From Otis tarda (lineage: Eukaryota; Chordata; Aves; Otidiformes; Otididae), in assembly GCA_026413225.1 (NCBI GenBank), contig CM048557.1, positions 496,001-560,000 on the forward strand: a stretch of DNA of 64,000 nucleotides, read 5' to 3'. Under the pieces are notes generated by a model. That model had not been told where the DNA came from and made no database searches. It saw only the letters and a list, made by a program, of their open reading frames with translations. Of this stretch, positions 1-52,626 are shown one piece after another. The stretch's first letter is position 1. The number at the start of each line of letters is the position of its first letter. The position numbers were made by a program, and so were the translations under genes.

Positions 1-266
1 CTGCGCCTCCCCCTCTGCGCCTCTGCCCCCGCTCAGCTTCTTCACATCTTCTCTTCTTCTCTCTTTTTTTTTCTGTTTTCCCCTTCTTAAATACGTTATC
101 GCAGAGGCGTTATCACGGGACATTCTGCTACCAATCGGCTCGGCCTTGGCCAGCAGCAGGTCCGCCCTAGGCCTGGCCAAGTCCACTGAACAAAGGGGAG
201 CGACTTCTAGCAGTTTCCTGCAGAAGCTACCACCTTAGGCCCCCCCTCACTAACAAAACCACGACA
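1..266 (-). mobile_element. ERV LTR, family B, copy A (cut by window edge)
   Basis: Read on the minus strand this is the 5' end of a long avian LTR. It starts TGTCGTGG at 266, runs through a run of G and the segment with AGCTTCTGCAGGAAACTGC, and reaches a TATTTAAGAAGGGG box and a GAGAAGAAGAG tract before the window ends. The same sequence recurs in plus orientation at 10203-11341 and in minus orientation at 39766-40911, which define a full length near 1.14 kb. Only the first 266 bp are visible here. No internal viral sequence adjoins the visible end. The family name is my label; I did not match it to a database entry. Confidence 0.85.
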
Positions 267-3745: not shown

Positions 3746-4460
3746 ATTAAAGCCCTAATCCTGTTGTTTTGACTGAAGCACAGCTTGTGTTTTTACTAAA
3801 ATATATCTTCCAGAATGACATCCAGTCTCAGTCAAAAGATACTAAGAGTACTGATTACTGCTACTGGGAATTTGTTTTGGTGATCCTCTAGTTTCATTTG
3901 TTAGACATTTGATCTTTTTACATCTTCCTTCACTTAAGAGCTGTTCAGCACTCAGTATTTTCTTCTTGAGGAGATACCGTTGCTCTTTTTTTTTCTCAGC
4001 TTGATGCCCAGAGTTAACTGTTAAAAGTAAGAACTGATGAGGGAATCCTGCACCTTTCATGAGATGCTCATTAAAAAATAAAGTTATAAGTCTGGTATTT
4101 CTGAACTTGAAAAGCACTACATCAGAGTTTTTGTTTGTTTGGGGGTGGGTTTTTTTGTTTGTTTGTTTGTTTTAAATAAGCCATTGGTCTAAAAGCTCTA
4201 TAAAAGCTCTATCTCCTTGGCATTTACTCAGGACCTTGGTATCATTGGCTCTATTACAGTGAGCGTTTCTTTGCTGCTTCATCTCAGCATTTCTACTCCT
4301 GCCATTCTACTTGCTAATGACCGAATCTTGTTTTCAGCCTTTGTCCCCTAGGAATCTTGTTTGAATACGGAGTTTGGCATCCGTTCAAGCCTTGTAATCT
4401 GGCTGAAGGGGGTGGGGGTGACTTGCGCTTTTTTTTTTTTTTTTTTTTTTTGGCAGTGTG
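3746..4460. other. Intergenic, simple repeats beside the provirus
   Basis: No gene recognised. There is a GTTT-type simple repeat at about 4128-4172 and a run of about 22 T at 4430-4451. The sequence TGGCAGTGTG (4451-4460) sits directly against the 5' LTR; its last five bases are the left target duplication of the provirus. Confidence 0.6.
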
Positions 4461-4807
4461 TGTGGGGTAATGTTAGCAAGGTTGCATGTATGCAGAAGGG
4501 ACAGTCCGTGGCGATTCACGCACTGGGCACGGATAAGTCCATGAGTGCAAGAGGCAGGTGCGCCCACGTACGTGGTGGGCACGGATAAGTCCCTGGGCGC
4601 AGGGGCAGGTGCCTGGCGGGCACGGATAGATCCATGGGCGCAGGGGGCGGGTGCGTTCGCGTGCGTAGCGGGTGTACGGGTATTTAATCCTGTGTTGCGC
4701 AGCATTAAATTGAAGGCTTGGCTTGGCGGTATCCGTGTGGTGCCCTGCGTTCCCCGGGGCGGGGTTCCGGTGCGTCCTGGGTTGGTTTGCTGGCAAGAGA
4801 GCTGGCA
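4461..4807 (+). repeat. 5' LTR of the provirus
   Basis: Begins TG and ends CA. U3 holds three tandem copies of a GGGCACGGATAAGTCC-type unit at about 4525, 4577 and 4618, typical of a retroviral enhancer. A TATTTAA box lies at about 4681 and ATTAAA, a possible poly(A) signal, at about 4705, so R probably starts just after the TATA-like box. GC-rich with many CpG. The matching 3' LTR is at 13303-13650. Confidence 0.92.
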
Positions 4808-4809
4808 AG

Positions 4810-4827
4810 TGGTGACCCCGACGTGAT
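4810..4827 (+). other. Primer binding site, tRNA-Trp type
   Basis: TGGTGACCCCGACGTGAT lies two bases after the CA end of the 5' LTR. It is complementary to the 3' end of tRNA-Trp and is the primer site used by avian leukosis/sarcoma viruses. It appears unmutated over 18 bases and places the element near alpharetroviruses or their relatives. Confidence 0.92.
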
Positions 4828-4990
4828 TCCCCGGGATGGGATCCCGATAGAGGGAGGGTCTGTAAGTTGTCGTGCAGCGACAACCGGTGACACCCGACGT
4901 GTCAGAAGGTAAGGCGTGGCCGCGGGGCGGTCGTGGTCCGGACAGGTTTGAATCGTGGCCGCGGGGCGGTCGTGCCTGCCTGCTGTTAGG
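4828..4990 (+). promoter_or_regulatory. Retroviral 5' leader with splice donor
   Basis: Untranslated leader between PBS and gag. AGAAGGTAAGG has a strong splice-donor form with GT at 4909-4910, presumably the donor for subgenomic env RNA. A CGTGGCCGCGGGGCGGTCGTG unit occurs twice, at about 4916 and 4954, separated by 15-17 bases; being GC-rich it could form part of the packaging structure, but that is inference. Confidence 0.6.
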
Positions 4991-6540
4991 ATGGCATCCA
5001 TCCAGGATACAGTAAAGGCGTTGGGAAAAAGAGGTAAATTGTCCGGTGCATACGGCACTGTTGATGAAGGGCTTGATTAGCAAGCCGGGAGAGATGATCG
5101 ACGTGGCGCGGTTACAGGTGGCGGGGAAAGAGCCATCGGAAGGGGAGGGGGACGAGCGGGGTCGAGACGGCGCGGAGGGGACGGGGGATGGCCCTCCGGT
5201 GGTCTGCCCCGTTCGGCCGAGAGCCTCTGACAGTGATAAAGGGGCGATGGAGTTTGGGTGTGCTCTCCCGCGTGTTGCGCCTCGCTTGCCGGGGGAGCCT
5301 GGGCCGAGCGGGCGACCCCCCGGATGCGAGGACGCGGGGGTGCCCTCTGTCTCTCCTTCTACCCTGTCGGCTTCACCGCTTGTGGATTCGCGGAGGGGCG
5401 ATACCGGCTTGCCACCTCTCTCTGAGGATTCATGGGTTGCGGACAGGGGAGGGGACAGCGAAGCGGGACTAGTGGACGCTTTAATCCGCAGGTTCGAGCG
5501 GTTGGCGGCGGATGTACAAAAAACACTGAGTAAAGTAGAGGGGTCGGTGCGGAAAGCGGAGGCAGCGGCTGAACAGAAAACAGGTAGTGGATTAACGGAT
5601 TGGACATCGATTGCTAAGAATTGCGTATTGGAAGGGGTATCTCTAGGGCCATCAGATGGAGATGGGGGTATAATAGTGTGCCCAGTGACACAGGGGCAGC
5701 AGGGTCGGCAGTGGAGCCTGTTGGATTACAAGTTATTCAGGGAATGGCAGAAGGCGGTGAAGGAGGAAGGTGTTAATGGGGTGGGGGCTCGAGCGATCTT
5801 GGATGTGATCTGGGCAGCAAACCCGCTTCCTTTTGATTGTAGGCAGCTGGCTAGAGCGGTTTTTACAACCCCCCAAATGGTGCTGTGGGAGGCTGCGTTA
5901 AAGGAAGAAGCGGACAAGGTGGTTTTAGAAGCTTTAGCTCCGAATCACCCCTTGCACGGGATTAGTGTGGAAAGGATTCTAGGGTCAGGTAACTTCGCTG
6001 ATCCGGCCGCACAGGCTAATATGCGGGGCAGGGATATCCACGCCGCCGCGCGGGTGGAGTTCGCAAAAGTCGGTAAATATGAGGGCAAAAGGCAGCCGTA
6101 CACTCAGGTGAGACAGGGCGTAGGGGAGTCGTATACCTCTTTCTTGGAAAGACTACAGAAGGCGATTGAGAATTCTGATTTACCAGAGAATGTGAAACAT
6201 AGTCGCGAAAGAGTTAGCTAAACAGAATGCAAATAAGGTAACTCAACAAGTTTTGGCGCAATTGCCTGGGGATGCAGGTGTGGCGCAGATGATTAAGCGG
6301 GTTATGGAGGCAGAAGCGTTGCAGCAAGCAAAACCGCTCATTGCAGCAGTTTCCGCTATGCGATCACCCCCCGCGGGCCCCACCTGCTTTGGTTGTGGGG
6401 GTGTAGGACATTTCAAGCGGCAGTGTCCTTCAGGGACCGATCAGGGGATAGAACTTACAGGTGGCCAGAACAGGAGAAGTTTTCGATGTGGGCGGGGCGG
6501 ACATCTTGCCAAACAGTGTCTGCAGCCACGCTTGGCCAGA
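4991..6540 (+). pseudogene. gag: Retroviral gag, frame-shifted
   Basis: The ATG at 4991 is the probable start. The frame is lost by an indel between about 5013 and 5078, so most of matrix and capsid reads in another frame to 6221; a second indel near 6200 puts nucleocapsid in the third frame. Capsid is recognised by its major homology region (RQGVGESYTSFLERL, about 6110-6155). Nucleocapsid has a first CCHC knuckle intact (CFGCGGVGHFKRQC, about 6388-6429). The second knuckle lacks its first cysteine, which reads Ser (about 6478). The Gly/Glu- and Pro-rich stretch after the start would be matrix/p10-like. Homology fades after about 6520, where the OPTN-related block begins. It cannot make a full Gag. 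Confidence 0.88.
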
Positions 6541-6739
6541 GGGCAGTCAGCTGAGCCGGGACCGCCGCCGCAGCCGTGGGCGAGCTGTGAGGGGGGGCGA
6601 GCGGGGAGAGGCTCGGCGGTGGCTGCCCCTCAGGCGAGCCCGGTGCCGGGAGAAACTGCGGGCGGAGGCCGGTTTCTGTCACGGTCGCCGTGGGCGGGCT
6701 CGCCCGGTGACTCGGCGGATCCAGGTGTATGCTTCAGAG
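6541..6739 (+). other. GC-rich joint between gag and OPTN, possible OPTN 5' UTR
   Basis: Very GC-rich sequence after the gag zinc knuckles and before the OPTN start codon. It resembles a CpG-island 5' UTR more than viral sequence, so I infer captured OPTN leader; the exact breakpoint is somewhere in about 6520-6620. The OPTN frame is open upstream back to about 6461, but it is not the frame of the nucleocapsid. Confidence 0.45.
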
Positions 6740-8077
6740 ATGTCCAGCAAGCTGAAAAGCCATCCTGCTGAAAATGGAGAGCATCCCAAGAGAAAAACGG
6801 AAAACGGAACAGACAGCATGGCTGCCTCAGCCCTTAGCACCTACACGGCTTCTTTTAACTCATTGCTCTCAGTGATGAGTTCTTTCATCTGCTGTACCAT
6901 TTCTTCTGGGGTGAAGTTGCATAACCAAGCTATGAAGGACTAGTACGAGGAACTTTTCATCTGTTGAGAGAAGCAGAAAGAAGAACGAGAATTTTATGAG
7001 TTAAACTTTAAAGAAGTTAAGCAGTGCTTCCTAGACAAGTGCATGGAAAATGAAAAGCTACAACAACAACTTCAGAACTTAAAGGAAAGAGAAGGAGCTG
7101 AAATGAAGGGCTGCATGGCTCCTGAGAAGGAAATGAGGCAGCTGATATCCCAGGTGCAACAGCTCCAGGCTGAGAAGGCCAATATGCTAGGCATAATTTC
7201 AGATCTGCAGGTCAAGCTGAACATCTCAGCAGAGGATTCCTTTGTGGAGATTGGGATGAACAAAGGAGAAATAAATAGAACTGCAAAGGAACATCAAGAG
7301 AATAGTGGTGAAATGACCAGTAACATTGATACCTACAGCAGGAGCAAAACTGCCGATGAATCAAAGAATCTGCAGTCTGAGGAGCTCATTGTAAGCCAAC
7401 TGCTCTACTGCCTTAGAAATGAAACTCAGAAGAGGGAAGAACTTGAGAAGGAGCTGCAGAATCACAAAGAGAGACTGTCAAAACTGGAGAAGAAAACCAG
7501 CAACTGCCTGAAGAGTGGGACACAAACTGAACAGCAAGCAGAGGAGAGTTCAGAGGCTGTTGGCAGTGAAGTAGAAACTCTGAGTTTGCAAGTTTGTGCT
7601 CTGTTTAAAGAGCTTCAGGAAGCCTGTGAGAACGTAAAAGAAGCAGAACTGATTCAGAAGCAGCTTCAAGAAAAGTGCCAAGTACTGGAAAGAAAAAGCT
7701 CAGCTGCTGCATCAGAACTGGAGGAGAAGCAGCAGCTAATATACACCATCAAGAAGCTGGAACTTCAGGTGGAGAGCATGCAGGCAGAGGTCAAGCTGGA
7801 ACAAGCCAAGGCACATGAAGAAAAGGTGAGATATAGTAGCTTGCAGGATACAAATAGCAAACTCCTTCCTGAACTCACCAAGGCAATGAAAACCATTGAT
7901 GAAATGAAACTCAAAGAGCTGCACAGAGTGGATAAAGTTGTGGTGAAACAACTGAATGCAAAGGTGAAGTTGGCAGAACAAGCGCCTGTGGCAAAGCAGC
8001 TCCAGATAGATGAAATGAAGCAAATAATTGCTAATTATTTGTTATTGACTGTGCCCTTTGATTTGAAAAACATTTAA
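6740..8077 (+). pseudogene. OPTN: Partial intronless OPTN (optineurin) copy in ERV
   Basis: Optineurin is the host autophagy receptor and TBK1 adaptor. This copy starts at the ATG at 6740 and runs without introns through regions that occupy several exons in the normal gene, in one frame to 8077. Recognised parts are the N-terminal leader, the first coiled coil (TBK1-binding region), the LC3-interacting motif EDSFVEI (about 7233-7253), and the long second coiled coil to MDEMKQ. Optineurin homology stops near 8030, before the ubiquitin-binding UBAN and C-terminal zinc finger. Defects are a 66-bp inversion at 6847-6912, TAG at 6941-6943 and a TGA about seven codons later. After them an ATG at 7043 opens 344 codons with no further stop or frameshift. 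It is in the same orientation as the provirus and has no poly(A) tail or CR1 tail, so retroviral capture is likelier than LINE retroposition. Confidence 0.9.
6847..6912 (-). other. 66-bp in-frame inversion inside the OPTN copy
   Basis: Read on the plus strand these 22 codons are unlike optineurin. Read on the minus strand they encode TPEEMVQQMKELITESNELK plus EA, the conserved start of the optineurin coiled coil that should sit exactly here, between STYT and KLHNQAMK. The length is a multiple of three, so the surrounding frame is kept. One or two junction bases appear lost or gained at each side. Confidence 0.88.
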
Positions 8078-8246
8078 TTTTTCTATGATGCTTTCAATTT
8101 AATTACTTGGGAAACACACCCATCAGTTTACTCGGGAATACAGCATAAGACTTTTGGCTATGTACTTAATAGAACTATAGATCAATGGTTTAAGAAAATT
8201 TTATATTTCATTTTGGAAATTTCAACTCTAGGTTAGAATGATTCAG
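8078..8246 (+). other. Unrecognised AT-rich segment 3' of OPTN copy
   Basis: Follows the loss of OPTN homology near 8030. No poly(A) tract, no viral protein and no clear OPTN 3' UTR signature. It may be OPTN intron or 3' sequence, or ERV filler. It ends at a run of G at 8250-8258, where LTR family B sequence begins. Confidence 0.4.
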
Positions 8247-8373
8247 CATGGGGGGGGGTGGGGAGAGGTTGTCTTGTTCCCTTTCTCATTGTCCTGCTTT
8301 GGTTTTGGTAATAGATAATTTTCCCCAGTTCGAGTCTGTTTTGCCTGTGGCAGTGGCTTTAAGGATTTCTTGC
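8247..8373 (+). repeat. LTR family B, 3' fragment (copy D)
   Basis: The segment with CATTGTCCTGCTTTGG, TTTTCCCCAGTTCGAGTCTG and GGCTTTAAGGATTTCT matches the 3' third of the family B LTRs at 11120-11215 (plus) and 39880-39990 (minus). The U5 end is replaced after about 8373 by a GC-rich stretch to 8430. It could be what is left of a 5' LTR of the second ERV whose pol and env follow. Confidence 0.75.
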
Positions 8374-8431
8374 CACGGCCGCCGCCAGGCGTGCCCCCCA
8401 CATCCCCCCGCCATCCGGCGGGGCGGGGGCA

Positions 8432-8693
8432 GCTTACCCAAAAACTGCCATGGTTACAGATACTCCCGTCTGAGTTCCAGTGGCCTTTAGCAAGAGAAAA
8501 GCTGCACCATTTGAATGAGTTGACGAGTGATTACAACTTGGACATATAAAGCCAACAGACAGTTCCTAGAATACACCTGTGTTTGTAATACAGACAAATC
8601 AGGTAAATGACGACTCTTACAGGATTTAAGGACAGTAAATTCAGTAATTGAGGATATGGGACCTTTGCAGCAGGGGTTACCATCTCCTTCGAG
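8432..8693 (+). pseudogene. pol: pol fragment: N-terminal reverse transcriptase
   Basis: Broken frames give QWPLAREKLHHLNEL (about 8478-8522), NTPVFVI, RLLQDLR and IEDMGPLQQGLPSPS (about 8649-8693). These are the ordered conserved blocks of the fingers region of class II (alpha/beta) retroviral RT. At least one Trp codon is now TGA and one or two indels change frame. The catalytic palm (YMDD region), connection, RNase H and most of integrase are missing; the next recognisable piece is the integrase tail. Confidence 0.82.
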
Positions 8694-8779
8694 GTACGAA
8701 CTTTGTGTAAGTGAAAAGATGAATCCCTCAATATTGTCTCCGATTCTGCCTATGTGGTCAATGTAATACAATGCACTGA

Positions 8780-8969
8780 ATGGACAATGTTAAAGGAAAT
8801 TAATAATCTTTTGTTGTATGACCAGTTTCAAAAAAAAAGTTGGAGTGAAAATAAGAATCTGGAAACAGGTAATTGGGAAGGACTATTCCCTCTTATGATG
8901 TGGGGGAAAGGATACTCTTGTGTCTCTACAGGAGCAGTGAACAAGTGGATTCCTGCACGATGGGTATGA
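8780..8969 (+). pseudogene. pol: pol fragment: integrase C-terminal domain
   Basis: The frame ending at 8969 contains NWEGLFPLMMWGKGYSCVST then PARWV, the SH3-like C-terminal domain of class II retroviral integrases with its WGxGYxCVST core. It is joined to the RT fragment by an internal deletion. A second, independent copy of this domain belongs to the outer provirus near 12520-12640, showing that two pol lineages are present. Confidence 0.75.
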
Positions 8970-8989
8970 CCAGCGCTCCAAGCTGCCTT

Positions 8990-10195
8990 GCGTTCGTCGT
9001 ATTTTAACAAGCTGTGTGGCAGCTCCATGGACATCAGTCACGGAAAGAACAAACGTGTGGGTAACTATGGCTGGTGCCACAGGGCGGGGTGCCATTTGTC
9101 TGTCTGAATCATCTTCAAATAAGCCTTTCAGAACATGCTTGGTCAATCTGCCAGATTGGATAGCGGTAGGACGGCAACTCTGTGTAAAACAACAGCAGCT
9201 GCGAGTGCTGAGTGCTAAATTACAAAAGATGGAACTTTTGGGATCACTAAAGATGGACTTCTACCTATTTTCTTTAACTATTCAGGAGCTAATGTTACTA
9301 GAGGGGTAATGATTGTAAATGCTTTAAGACCTATACATTGTAACGATACAGCATGGTGTAATCACGCGAGCACATAAACGAAGTACACATAGCTTTGAAT
9401 CTGATTGCCAAGATAATACAGAGTTTTGGAAACCAAGTGAAATTATTGCTGCTTCAATCTTTGCACGTGGTGTGGCAAGTGCCCAGGCATTATCTACACT
9501 AAATAAATTGGGCTTTTGGCTTGCTAAGCAAACGCATACAGCTGCATTGGTACTATCAACGCTGTTAATTGATGTAGATTCTATACACTACGCTACTTTA
9601 CAAAACAGAACCGCTGTTAGCCTGCAGAGCACATATTTGACAGGCCTTGTTGCATGTGCTGGCCACACATGCAGCAAAGTCCAGTCAGGCCGTGTTGTGT
9701 GCGCTGGCCACCCGTGCAGCAACGTCTAGTCAGTACTCTTTCACTGAATCTGCTGAGGGTATAAACGGAGGTGGCTCGGAGCGAAGGGGAGAGGACAGAC
9801 CCAGAGCACACTTTATTTACAACAGGGGATACCCTGAAGGTGCTGCGCCTGCCTCCTTTCTCTGCTCTGACCCGGCTGATCATCACCCTCCTGTTCGGCG
9901 GTGTCTTCGGCGTAGTCGAGTTGGTAACAGAATAGATCAGTAGTAGATTCTTTATTATTAGTACAAAATCATGGTTGTCAGGATTTTGATGGGCTTTGCT
10001 GCATGAATCTGTCCGATTATTCGGAATCAATTCACAAAGTATTCAAAACTTGCAAAAAGGAGTACAAAAACTGCAACAAAGTGATGATTTTGATATATTC
10101 AGAAATCTTTTTGGTGGGTTGATAAAAGCTTATTACAAATAGCTGTAGGATGCTTATTCATTCTTTTTATATATGTATTTTGATCTGTATTCTGT
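8990..10195 (+). pseudogene. env: Alpharetrovirus-like env, interrupted
   Basis: The surface subunit is represented by NVWVTMAGATGRGAICLS (about 9051-9104) and a PFRTCLV block, which resemble avian leukosis-type SU. The transmembrane subunit starts near 9420 with an internal fusion-peptide-like IFARGVASAQAL and a heptad region ending at LQNR (about 9609). LTR sequence then intervenes (9611-9925). TM resumes with a CX6CC disulfide motif (CQDFDGLCC, about 9975-10001), a second heptad region and a membrane span to about 10195. There are stops in the membrane span and one single-base deletion near 10035. It is not expressed as a whole protein. Confidence 0.8.
9611..9925 (+). repeat. LTR family C fragment inside env
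   Basis: Closely matches the minus-strand LTR at 14564-14949 but lacks about the first 100 bp of that copy. Shared landmarks are GCTGTTAGCC, GGTATAAAC (TATA-like, about 9755) and the CTGAAGGTGCTG segment. It is bounded by the direct repeat AACAGAA (9604-9610 and 9926-9932), and the env heptad reading resumes on the far side. Confidence 0.75.
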
Positions 10196-10202
10196 GTGTG
10201 TT

Positions 10203-11341
10203 TGTTGTGGTTTTGTTAGTGAGGGGGGGCCTAAGGTGGTAGCTTCTGCAGGAAACTGCTAGAAGTCGCTCCCCTTTGTTCAGTGGACTCGGCCGGGCCT
10301 AGGGCGGACCTGCTGCTGGCCAAGGTCGAGCCGATTGGTAGCAGAATGTCGTGTGATAACGCCTCTGCGATATTTAAGAAGGGGAAAACAGGAAAAAAAA
10401 AAGAGAGAAGAGAAGATGTGAAGAAGCTGAGTGGGGGCAGAGGCACAGAGGGGGAGGCGCAGGCCTCCTGGGCCTTGCAGGCCTCACCCTCTGGCCTCTC
10501 GCCAGGCAGCCGACTGGGCCCAACTCGGTCCGGCCTGGCTGCAAGAAGTGGAAAGGAGATGAGAAGTGAATAAGATGTAAAAAAAGATCCTGAGAGACAT
10601 CTACCAGCCTGTTGTGAGGAACGGCTGCAGATGCTAAGGTCAGTTCAGAAGGAGGGGGAGGAGTAATGCGGCTCCTGGCCAAGATTCCCCTGTAGCCTGT
10701 GGTGACGACCATGGTGGAGCAGGTTGTCCCCCCGCAGCCCATGGAGGTCCACGGAGGAGCAGAGATCCACTTGGAGCCCATGAAGGACCCCACACCGGGG
10801 GAGGTGGATGCCTGAAGGCGGCTGTGGCCCACGGAGGGCCCGCTGGGACAGCTGTTCTGGAGAGACTGTACTCCGTGGAAGAGATGACCCATGCCGGAGC
10901 AGTTCCACGAAGGACTGTGGCCCGTGGGAGGGACCCCACGATGGAGCAGGGGAGGAATGTGAGGAGTTCTTCCCCCAACCATGAAGCAGCGGCGTGAAAC
11001 AACGTATGATGAACTGACTGCAATCCCCATTCCCTCTTCCACCCTGTGCCGCTCGGGGGGGGAGGTAGTAGAGATAATGTTAAGCTTGGGAAGATGGAGG
11101 GGTGGATGGAGGTTATCTTGTTCTCTGTTTCATTATCCTGCTGTTTGTAGTAATAAATGAATAGTTTTCCCCAAGTCGAGTCTGTTTTGCCCGTGACGGT
11201 AACTTTAAGGATTTCTCCCTGTCCTTATCTCAAACCTCGAGCCGTTTTTCCTTATGTTTTTCTCTCCCTGTTCTCTCGGAGGGTGGGGGGAGTGAGAGAG
11301 AGACTGCGTAGTCTGGTCCTGATCAGGGCTGAACTACGACA
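10203..11341 (+). mobile_element. LTR family B, full length, copy B
   Basis: A 1139-bp LTR beginning TGTTGTGGTTTTGTTAG and ending ACTACGACA. It has a TATTTAAG box near 10370, a purine tract, degenerate GGAGCCCATG-type repeats in the middle, and AATAAA near 11154. No polypurine tract precedes it, so it looks like a solo LTR inserted at the end of the env fragment, or a recombination joint, rather than a normal 3' LTR. I found no convincing target duplication. Confidence 0.85.
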
Positions 11342-11860
11342 GGGTTGAAATATGTGCAGACTTTAATAGATAAAGTGTTGAAACAAACCTCTTCTCATAA
11401 ACAAAGAAGAGAGATGTGGGTATTTCTTGAGCAAGTACGGTGTCAGTGAAGGCGAACTGACCTTGGGAGAGGGATACAATCATGCTCGCTGGAAGAAAGC
11501 CATGGAATGAGAAGGGAAGCTTTAAGATACAAAACATTGTTAGTGGAATTTATGGCTTGTTTCAACAGAGGCTTGCAAAAAAGAAACTAGTCACTGGCCT
11601 TGTATATAGGAAAGTTACTGGAGTTGTTATGTTTGTAATAGTAGAAGAATGCTATAGTAGAAAATTGCTAGAAGATAGTGAAACTTAGCAGTCATGAATA
11701 TGTATAATGTGATCAGTAATTTTATTGGCTAAGCTTGTGTGTGGGATAACTGGGTGGTTGCTATCCTTGGCTAAAATCAGAATTGTGATACTAGGCATCA
11801 TACTAGGTATAATTATTAACATTCCGTGCTTGGTTACCTGCCTACAAAAGTGATACAGAG
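11342..11860 (+). pseudogene. ERV remnant with a second Env membrane anchor
   Basis: Mostly unrecognised to about 11735. Then a frame gives GWLLSLAKIRIVIL and IINIPCLVTCLQK before a stop at about 11853: a hydrophobic span followed by a Cys-rich end, as at the C terminus of alpharetrovirus-type TM. The env at 8990-10195 already has a membrane span of different sequence, so this is a separate env remnant or the far side of an LTR insertion. Confidence 0.5.
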
Positions 11861-11871
11861 AATACTACATC

Positions 11872-12640
11872 AGGGCGCACACGCCATATGACGTCAGTTC
11901 CAACTGCCCATCTCACAGGCTTGGGCTGTAGTGGCAGCCTGTCCAGCATGTCAAGCAGCAAAGCCAAACCAGGCCTTATACTACCCAGGCATTAACCCTG
12001 GGGGTATGCTCCGAACCAGGTATGGCAAGTGGATATCACAGAGTACGTGCTATTTGGTTGTCTCAAATACATTCATGTTGCAGTCGACACTTGCTCCCGA
12101 GCTCTCTTCATATGTCCATTCACAATGTCCACAACGCAGAAATCCATCCTACACCGGAACCGGGCTTTTGCCTGCCTAGGGGTACCTCGGGAGATAAAGA
12201 CCGACAATGGGCCAAATTATCAATCACGGGTATTTTGCAACTTCCTGCAGATGCGGGGAGTCCGCCATACGTTTGGCATTCCTTTGAACAGCACCGGGCA
12301 AGTGATTGTAGAATGCGCACACAAAACCCTGAAAGCACAGCTAACGCGCTTAAGAGAGGGGTTTGCCAGAGGTCTTAGTCGATAAAGCGCTTGTGGTACC
12401 GAATCATATGTCCTTCGCTAACCCCCAATCCTTTTTCCCCTATCCAGAACCATTTTTTGTCGCGTCAGCCGCTGTTTGGGGGCAAGGTACTCCCAAAGGT
12501 CTGGTACCACCTGCCAGAAGACCCACTTTGGGAAGGTCCTGCTGATCTGCTAATAAGGGGACGAGGGTATGCTTGCATCTCCACAGGTGTGGGGACCTGA
12601 TGGATCCCGGCCCCGTTGGTACAGCCGTGGCTGGAGGATT
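11872..12640 (+). pseudogene. pol: pol integrase of the outer provirus
   Basis: Begins with the N-terminal zinc domain (HQGAH, then CPAC at about 11940). The catalytic core lies in one frame from 12029 to 12385: first Asp in VDITEY (12032), second Asp in KTDNGPNY (12203-12205), Glu in QVIVEC (12311-12313). The last two are separated by 35 residues, the classical D,D-35-E spacing. The C-terminal domain is seen as LWEGPADLL and GRGYACIST (about 12525-12590). A Trp to stop change near 11894, a frameshift near 12010 and another after 12385 inactivate it. RT and RNase H of this element are absent. Confidence 0.88.
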
Positions 12641-13289
12641 GGCAGAGTAACCGAGCGGCGCAGTGCTCTCCAGCTTACCCTAGTGGGATTGATCCTGATT
12701 GTGAGTCTTCCAATGGCAGTGATAACAACTAACTTCTGGGAGCAGTTCACGCATTACACAAACCCTGCTCAGGTTTGCATAGTGCGTGGCCTGTTGGGCT
12801 CTTAAAAATGCCAGCCGCACAGCCCTCGCCATATCTGAACCGGCGACTGCTTTAGCAGCACACGACAAAGGACTGACACAAATGAAGTTGGCATTAGATT
12901 ATGCCCTTGCGAGGCCTGGCATCGGTTGCAGCGACCTACAGGGAGTCCTAGGGCTCCAGGGTTACTGCTGTTTGGACTTCAGCAAGAACACCTCCTTGGC
13001 CTTGGAGAAGACGCGTGTGCATGCTGCCCAGTCAGTATTCAACGTCAAAGCCCTAAAGGACTGGGGGTAGTTTCCAGACATGTTCGGTTTACCTAGATGG
13101 CTAAGAAATATTGTGTCTATAGGTTTGATGATCCTAGCAGTTGCTTTGATAATGCTTTGTTTGTTTCTGTTATTGTTATGTTTCTTGCATGCTATGATTA
13201 AGGGGTCACTAGGCAACTATCCATGATCAACTATGTTATGGCGGCATCCGCCCCAGGGTACCAGCCATTAGACCAGGATGATTTAGCAT
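12641..13289 (+). pseudogene. env: Short env remnant of the outer provirus
   Basis: A hydrophobic leader-like segment (LTLVGLILIVSLPMAVI, about 12676-12726) follows the integrase end. Then NFWEQFTHYTNPAQ, a region with GLQGYCCLDFS (about 12949-12981), a long membrane span (about 13110-13200) and a short tail with a YQPL sorting-type motif ending at a TAG near 13288. This looks like an Env from which most of the surface subunit is deleted, with at least two frameshifts. It is different from the alpharetrovirus-like env at 8990-10195. Confidence 0.6.
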
Positions 13290-13302
13290 AGAGGGGGGGA
13301 AT
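13290..13302 (+). other. Polypurine tract
   Basis: AGAGGGGGGGAAT immediately before the TGTGGGG start of the 3' LTR, as expected for the plus-strand primer of reverse transcription. Confidence 0.85.
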
Positions 13303-13650
13303 TGTGGGGTAACGTTAGCAGGGCTGCATATATGCAGGAGGGACAGTCCGTGGCGATTCACGCACTGGGCACGGATAAGTCCATGACTGCAGGGGGCAGG
13401 CGTGTCCATGTATGTGGTAGGTACGGATAAGTCCATGGGCGCAGGGGCAGGTGCGTGGCGGGCATAGATGGGTCCATGGGCACAGGGGGGCGGGTGCGTT
13501 CGCGTGCGTAGCGGGTGTACGGATATTTAACCCTGTGTTGCGCAGCATTAAATTGAAGGCTTGGCTTGGCGGTATCCGTGTGATGCCCTGCTTTCCCTGG
13601 GGCGGGGTTCCGGTGCGTCCTGGGTTGGTTTGCTGGCAAGAGAACTGGCA
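13303..13650 (+). repeat. 3' LTR of the provirus
   Basis: 348 bp, starting TGTGGGGTAA and ending GAACTGGCA, followed by GTGTG that repeats the left flank. It keeps the TATTTAA box and ATTAAA. The enhancer repeats have decayed more here than in the 5' LTR: the middle unit reads GGTACGGATAAG and the third GGGCATAGATGG. Confidence 0.92.
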
Positions 13651-13655
13651 GTGTG

Positions 13656-14563: not shown

Positions 14564-14949
14564 TTTATGAGAGTCTTACCACCCCGACTAAGCCGGAGAC
14601 ACCACTGAGCAGGAGGATGACGATCAGCGGGGTCAGAGCAGAGAAGGGAGGTAGGCACAGCACCTTCAGGGTGTCCCCTGTTGTTTGTAGAGTGTGCTCT
14701 GGGTCCTTTTCTCTCTCCCTCTGCGCTGAGCCGCCTCTGTTTATACCCTCAGCAGATTCAGCAGAAGAGTACTGACCAGGTGTTGATGCACGCGTGGCCA
14801 GTGCATGCAGCAAGGCCTGCCAAGTACGTGCCCTGCTGGCTAACAGCAGTTCCCAGATAGCAGCAACATCCTGCTCAATAACAACCCTCCTAGCTCCCCT
14901 CTCCAAGGTCGTTGTTCTCACAGCTGTGTGCAGCTTGTAATTTCCCACA
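14564..14949 (-). mobile_element. LTR family C, near-complete copy
   Basis: On the minus strand it starts TGTGGGAAATTACAAG and has GGGTATAAACAGAGG (about 14750). It ends near GGTAAGA, where the copy at 9611-9925 reads GGTAAC. The minus-strand frame is open across almost its whole length and ends in a hydrophobic stretch (LTPLIVILLLSGVSGLVGVV). No target duplication is evident, so the true 3' boundary may lie further on. Confidence 0.7.

Positions 14950-16059: not shown

Positions 16060-52626
<36,567 letters not shown>

Follow-up and report, generated by a model that had tools for sequence, protein, structure and literature searches.

A gag-optineurin hybrid endogenous retrovirus in bustards, probably derived from a single capture of spliced OPTN mRNA

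Retroviral gene capture is known mostly from tumour-selected oncogenes, and acute transforming avian retroviruses carry host coding sequence, often truncated, behind gag. The closest precedent found for the locus described here is given by crocodilian endogenous retroviruses (ERVs) with KIT-ligand and nectin3; CrocERV31 with nectin3 is reported to have six insertions in the American alligator and to predate the split of two alligator species (PMC4299795). Here, a stretch of 64,000 nucleotides from the great bustard, Otis tarda (contig CM048557.1, positions 496,001 to 560,000; hereafter the window), was analysed, in which an old, broken ERV copy bounded by long terminal repeats (LTRs) occupies positions 4461-13650 and carries a truncated coding sequence of the autophagy receptor optineurin (OPTN) behind gag. 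The likeness to CrocERV31 lies in an archosaur ERV lineage whose members have one captured host mRNA in common; according to the same study, however, nectin3 stands in place of env and purifying selection was reported, whereas bustard OPTN comes after gag and no OPTN-like constraint was seen (PMC4299795). CrocERV29 is likewise an ERV family with a captured host mRNA, and nine of its copies retain the open reading frame (ORF), but its insert lies between pol and env with no significant loss of viral domains, comprises the entire soluble form of KIT-ligand and was reported to be under purifying selection (PMC4299795). The acute transforming avian retroviruses (reviewed in PMC13297096) resemble the bustard element in their gag-onc layout, with host coding sequence joined behind gag, but they carry growth-control oncogenes, whereas the bustard family is an old germ-line one whose cargo is an autophagy receptor and shows no OPTN-like selection. 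No paper on OPTN capture was found among the open-access titles and abstract openings listed (bioRxiv excluded), which is weak evidence of absence, and the word "optineurin" occurs 0 times in the main texts of both the great bustard (PMC10354230) and the houbara (PMC12852100) genome papers. The bustard case concerns an autophagy/TBK1 pathway capture that has persisted in the germ line in many copies, whose shared breaks give the event a position on a tree.

The analyses point, with a probability of about 0.85 for the reading as a whole, to a single capture of spliced OPTN mRNA by a retrovirus or ERV in the bustard lineage, followed by amplification of the hybrid with OPTN as passenger cargo. 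Comparison with proteins revealed that OPTN lies in the window in sense orientation and without introns, as had been claimed in the original prediction, which was made from the window alone; the coding part is preceded by 5' untranslated region (5'UTR) and gag (Table 1). The ORF at 7043-8077 (344 amino acids) matched the own OPTN of Macqueen's bustard (Chlamydotis macqueenii) at 1.3e-156, the best bustard "optineurin-like" gene model at 2e-183 and optineurin chains of the PDB at 1.3e-05 at best. The protein search yielded 749 matches at E ≤ 1e-3; among the best 120, which are those listed, the named ones were avian and nearly all optineurin, and the bustard "optineurin-like" models ranked ahead of OPTN itself. 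Near residue 200, the window reads YSRSK where cellular models read either VYIRSK or VYMSK, a two-residue variant that looks like an isoform choice.

Further evidence for an mRNA template came from the 5' side of the insert. The GC content is 0.75-0.78 across 6540-6719, and the OPTN frame stays open upstream of the ATG into this GC-rich stretch, with its final 57 bases matching as peptide the N-terminal extension of the Accipiter OPTN model P0016. Positions 6683-6739 plus the start methionine translate as GRRGRARPVTRRIQVYASEM, of which 18 of 20 residues are identical to this extension, and the 5'UTR is therefore regarded as part of the insert. The residues right before VDASEM differ in other bird models (P0021, P0025, and P0044), so an exon junction is suggested there, and the sequence suggests that the captured 5'UTR crosses this putative junction without an intron. 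The gag/5'UTR junction, LARGQS-[AGT]EPGP, is common to the window and to the bustard models P0007 and P0121, and its breakpoint is placed only approximately, near 6541. The start of the insert proposed earlier, 6541, agrees with the GC rise, whereas the proposed end at 8246 had to be moved, since OPTN itself stops at 8032; positions 8033-8245, on the 3' side of the insert, form a tail that is also present in P0121.

The spliced origin of the insert would also be expected if CR1, a long interspersed nuclear element (LINE), had made an OPTN retrocopy that landed in a provirus, the compound being later amplified by the virus. However, LINE copies typically lack the 5' end and have an intact 3' end that carries poly(A), and the pattern of this insert is the opposite, with the 5' side kept and the 3' side lost. 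The hallmarks of a LINE processed pseudogene, poly(A) and an own target duplication around OPTN, which the original prediction had named as evidence against itself, were not detected beyond chance: within 7950-8260 the sole A-run of at least five bases is one of 5, and the flank zones have no word in common that is longer than seven bases (a run of G), a length that 197 of 500 shuffles attained. A LINE origin is thus considered very unlikely, and the combination of a present 5' side, a cut 3' side and the lack of poly(A) or repeat would be accounted for by a viral reverse transcriptase that switched templates between viral RNA and OPTN mRNA. Early polyadenylation within a retained intron was also considered for the 3' end and is disfavoured, as the break falls inside an exon by the human exon limits that we assume.

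The same truncated OPTN was found in C. macqueenii, where no fewer than 11 gene models annotated as "optineurin-like" carry it (P0001-P0008, P0086, P0121, and P0123), a lower bound counted among the matches listed and within limits of protein length. These other copies are known as gene-model proteins with predicted introns, and seven of the 11 are flagged as low quality (the unflagged ones being P0001, P0002, P0006, and P0123), so their details are provisional. Ten of them are located on one contig of 54,811,411 bases and P0006 on a contig of 84,738,614 bases, which we suspect from size alone to be W and Z, respectively, while the bustard's own OPTN (P0009 and P0010) is on a contig of 215.7 Mb. 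The 3' break is reached by nine of the 12 captured rows (eight models and the window), eight of which read A-N-Y at a site that reads K-Q in all 26 cellular OPTNs aligned; seven of the eight models that reach it have the break of the window, and P0121 carries the tail of the window through the same stop. On the 5' side, gag-like residues lead into OPTN in P0007 (low quality), and P0002 and P0003 have a different gag-like stretch upstream of OPTN. Behind OPTN, P0008 showed matches to protease (4.7e-04) and RNase H (1.9e-03, below cut-off), and P0123 has gag, perhaps from a neighbouring element. Further gag-OPTN junctions, which the original prediction had proposed to seek in other bird genomes, thus exist at the level of protein models, and the bustard annotations look like viral copies rather than host paralogues. 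An assembly error, or an OPTN pseudogene that came to lie next to an ERV by chance, might be entertained given that repeats hamper assembly and that a single window was read; with the junction recurring in P0007 and P0121, and the tail in the latter, it is extremely improbable.

In accordance with these results, phylogenetic analysis of 38 rows and 395 columns (26 cellular OPTNs and 12 captured sequences, the window being represented by 6968-8035 only) placed all captured rows in one clade (100/100), with the Chlamydotis OPTN as sister (97/97). Sixteen residues occur in at least 90% of the captured rows and in none of the 26 cellular ones, and two residues are common only to the captured rows and the Chlamydotis OPTN. 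The stem of the captured clade measured 0.064 as against 0.017 for the own branch of the bustard OPTN, approximately 4-fold longer. The single clade and the shared breaks are therefore most simply explained by one capture from the OPTN of the bustard lineage. At the level of sequence, the hybrid structure, the breaks shared among protein models, the single clade and the bustard origin are established, and the predicted fossil transducing retrovirus is well supported as a capture by the gag-OPTN junction, the spliced 5'UTR, the lack of poly(A) or flanking repeat and the 11 related models.

The capture probably took place during minus-strand synthesis, when the polymerase would have jumped to OPTN RNA inside its coding part (3' break past codon 430), copied it back into the 5'UTR and, near the end of gag, returned to the viral template. 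The resulting LTR-gag-OPTN element would then have copied to many sites, as an infectious virus or solely within the germ line, probably with proteins from intact relatives, and the copy in the window would be one such insertion, upstream of IPO7. The template switching, the dependence on helpers and the retrotransposition of each copy are steps that we infer.

Several observations weigh against the single-capture reading. For the ten copies on one contig, retrotransposition and segmental duplication are indistinguishable, because the other copies are gene-model proteins only. P0005 departs right after IIA with another continuation, and P0007, P0008, and P0086 end short of the 3' break. For the tail at 8033-8245, a search within the window gave only short matches at chance level (E 0.63). 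In addition, no gag relatives without OPTN that span the junction were found in a protein search that scored the 8000 candidates with most words in common and gave 2 proteins; a search of viral contigs found no relative of gag or OPTN. A derivation of the tail from the 3' region of the element that owns the LTRs was tried and rejected, with a whole-tail score of 32 against a shuffle maximum of 44; taken alone, the last 24 bases of the tail do resemble the polypurine tract (PPT) of the owner (score 32, where shuffles gave at most 27), for a piece picked after viewing.

The captured sequence was also examined regarding function and constraint. The N-terminal NEMO-like domain of optineurin binds TBK1, and it was detected in all eight of the bustard models scanned (of 11). 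Matches to CC2-LZ covered only its first half, up to profile position 44-47 of 100, in six of the eight, all below cut-off; there was no match in P0007 and P0008, models that stop early or depart from OPTN. The zinc finger was found in none of the eight, while the cellular P0010 has all three domains. The insert is therefore without the ubiquitin-binding (UBAN) core and the zinc finger. In five of the 11 models, FVET replaces FVEI, a motif of OPTN that we take to be LC3-binding. In the window copy, a domain scan of 6452-6940 gave no NEMO match, gag nucleocapsid and OPTN are in different frames, and the element is broken by in-frame stops in OPTN at 6941 and 6965, an inversion of a stretch that has normal orientation in the bustard models read that cover it, and a shift in the gag reading frame near 6196-6221.

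Substitutions were then compared with OPTN conservation, using 213 of 395 sites that vary among 109 cellular rows, so that 54% of changes would fall on variable sites by random placement. On the captured stem, nine of 21 changes did so (binomial p = 0.38 against 54%), as did 39 of 69 singletons within the copies (p = 0.72). In the held-out cellular OPTN control, 2683 of the 2960 residues that departed from the majority (91%) were at variable sites, with a minimum of 75% among rows with more than four differences, bearing in mind that this control counts differences rather than branch changes and that related rows are not independent. On the own branch of the bustard OPTN, four of five changes were at variable sites. 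The captured rows thus look free of OPTN-like constraint from soon after capture. As the substitutions ignore OPTN conservation and the ubiquitin-binding core is missing, the OPTN part is most likely a passenger.

Selection of OPTN in the virus, through a gag-OPTN product interfering with TBK1/IRF3 signalling or selective autophagy in the manner of acute-virus oncogenes, would be in line with the presence of the NEMO-like domain in all eight models scanned, the joining of gag-like residues to OPTN in P0007 and the four models without a low-quality flag. Optineurin is reported to repress the induction of interferon-beta, which favours such a role, but when mutated in ubiquitin binding it failed to repress interferon and was a poor binder of TBK1 (PMC2824764). 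Together with the partial or absent CC2-LZ, the missing zinc finger, the FVET variant, the differing frames and NEMO-negative piece of the window, and the stem value of 9/21 as against 54% by chance and 91% in cellular rows, this makes selection unlikely. Similar doubt attaches to the idea that the carrier, an avian retrovirus, was infectious and that its gag-OPTN product, a truncated autophagy and TBK1 adaptor severed from ubiquitin, altered innate signalling or autophagy in the host and so aided the spread of the virus or of the endogenous family before it decayed. A functional adaptor in the manner of acute avian virus oncogenes, as suggested earlier, is not supported, given the loss of the UBAN core and zinc finger and the lack of OPTN-like constraint. 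The captured copies may have acquired a new function with constraints unlike those of OPTN. The family permits direct tests of the route by which a host mRNA becomes part of a retroviral genome, and of whether cargo without visible selection can be amplified.

The element has an LTR pair of 347 and 348 bases that start with TG and finish with CA, a 5-base target duplication, a PPT and a primer binding site (PBS)-like stretch, which we take to resemble tRNA-Trp, as used for priming by avian leukosis viruses. The duplication is weak on its own because of its GT-repeat context. Gag p24, two zinc knuckles and the presumed tRNA-Trp primer might point to class II (alpha/beta-like), the domains themselves not being class-specific. 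The Kimura two-parameter (K2P) divergence of the LTRs is 0.087 (24 transitions, nine of them in CpG context, and four transversions), which at assumed rates of 1.2-2.5e-9 per year gives an insertion age of 17-36 My, a rough value since the halves of the LTR diverge unevenly (88% vs 96%).

Table 1. Features of the OPTN-carrying element and its surroundings (positions in the window).
Feature	Positions	Strand	Basis
Target site duplication GTGTG, left copy	4456..4460	.	GTGTGTG context
5' LTR (TG...CA)	4461..4807	+	91.7% identity to 13303-13650
PBS-like stretch	4810..4827	+	Sequence, just after left LTR
gag matrix-capsid (MA-CA) region	5016..6221	+	Gag_p24 2e-22; Gag_p24_C 3.8e-05 (just under Pfam cut-off)
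gag nucleocapsid (NC) with two CCHC zinc knuckles; end approximate	6196..6540	+	zf-CCHC 1.9e-08, two stretches
OPTN 5'UTR	6541..6739	+	Homology for 6683-6739 only; remainder by GC rise
Intronless OPTN coding sequence (residues 1-430 of 555)	6740..8032	+	Protein matches; ATG 6740
Inverted-in-place OPTN stretch, 68 bases	6847..6914	-	Reverse complement reads TPEEMVQQMKELITESNELKEA
Tail after 3' OPTN break; PPT-like motif at end	8033..8245	+	P0121 same residues to stop
Fragment of other LTR-like repeat	8252..8370	+	78% to 11096-11216
RNase H / integrase C-terminus remnant of one ERV	8715..8966	+	IN_DBD_C 7.8e-06; RNase_H 0.014 (below cut-off)
LTR-like repeat of another element, ~1.1 kb	10216..11345	+	73% to 39762-40899 (-); first part 94% to 1-266 (-)
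Second integrase (Zn, core, C-terminus), in pieces	11892..12597	+	rve 1e-14; Integrase_Zn 0.0046 (below cut-off); IN_DBD_C 7.7e-07
env-like remnant ahead of PPT	12783..13226	+	Own reading; no Pfam match above cut-off
PPT and LTR-adjacent bases	13290..13302	+	G-rich tract ahead of 13303
3' LTR	13303..13650	+	Repeat comparison with 5' LTR
Target site duplication GTGTG, right copy	13651..13655	.	Sequence

Downstream of OPTN, pieces from two or more ERVs form a mosaic, and either nested insertion or recombination could have yielded it. The provirus foreseen in the original prediction, with gag, LTRs, PBS, PPT and duplication, is thus present, but its clean gag-OPTN-pol/env order gives way to two integrase C-termini and foreign LTR-like pieces; no reverse transcriptase match was obtained in the window pieces scanned for domains. 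An inverted repeat pair at 9686-9927 and 14576-14819 is 83% identical, with one copy inside an env-like stretch. The 3' end of the element is located ~3 kb upstream of IPO7: an exon at 16677 matches importin 7 (6n88, 1.2e-10) as exon 1, and SNORA23, which presumably resides within an IPO7 intron, was found at 39584, together identifying the window as the IPO7 locus.
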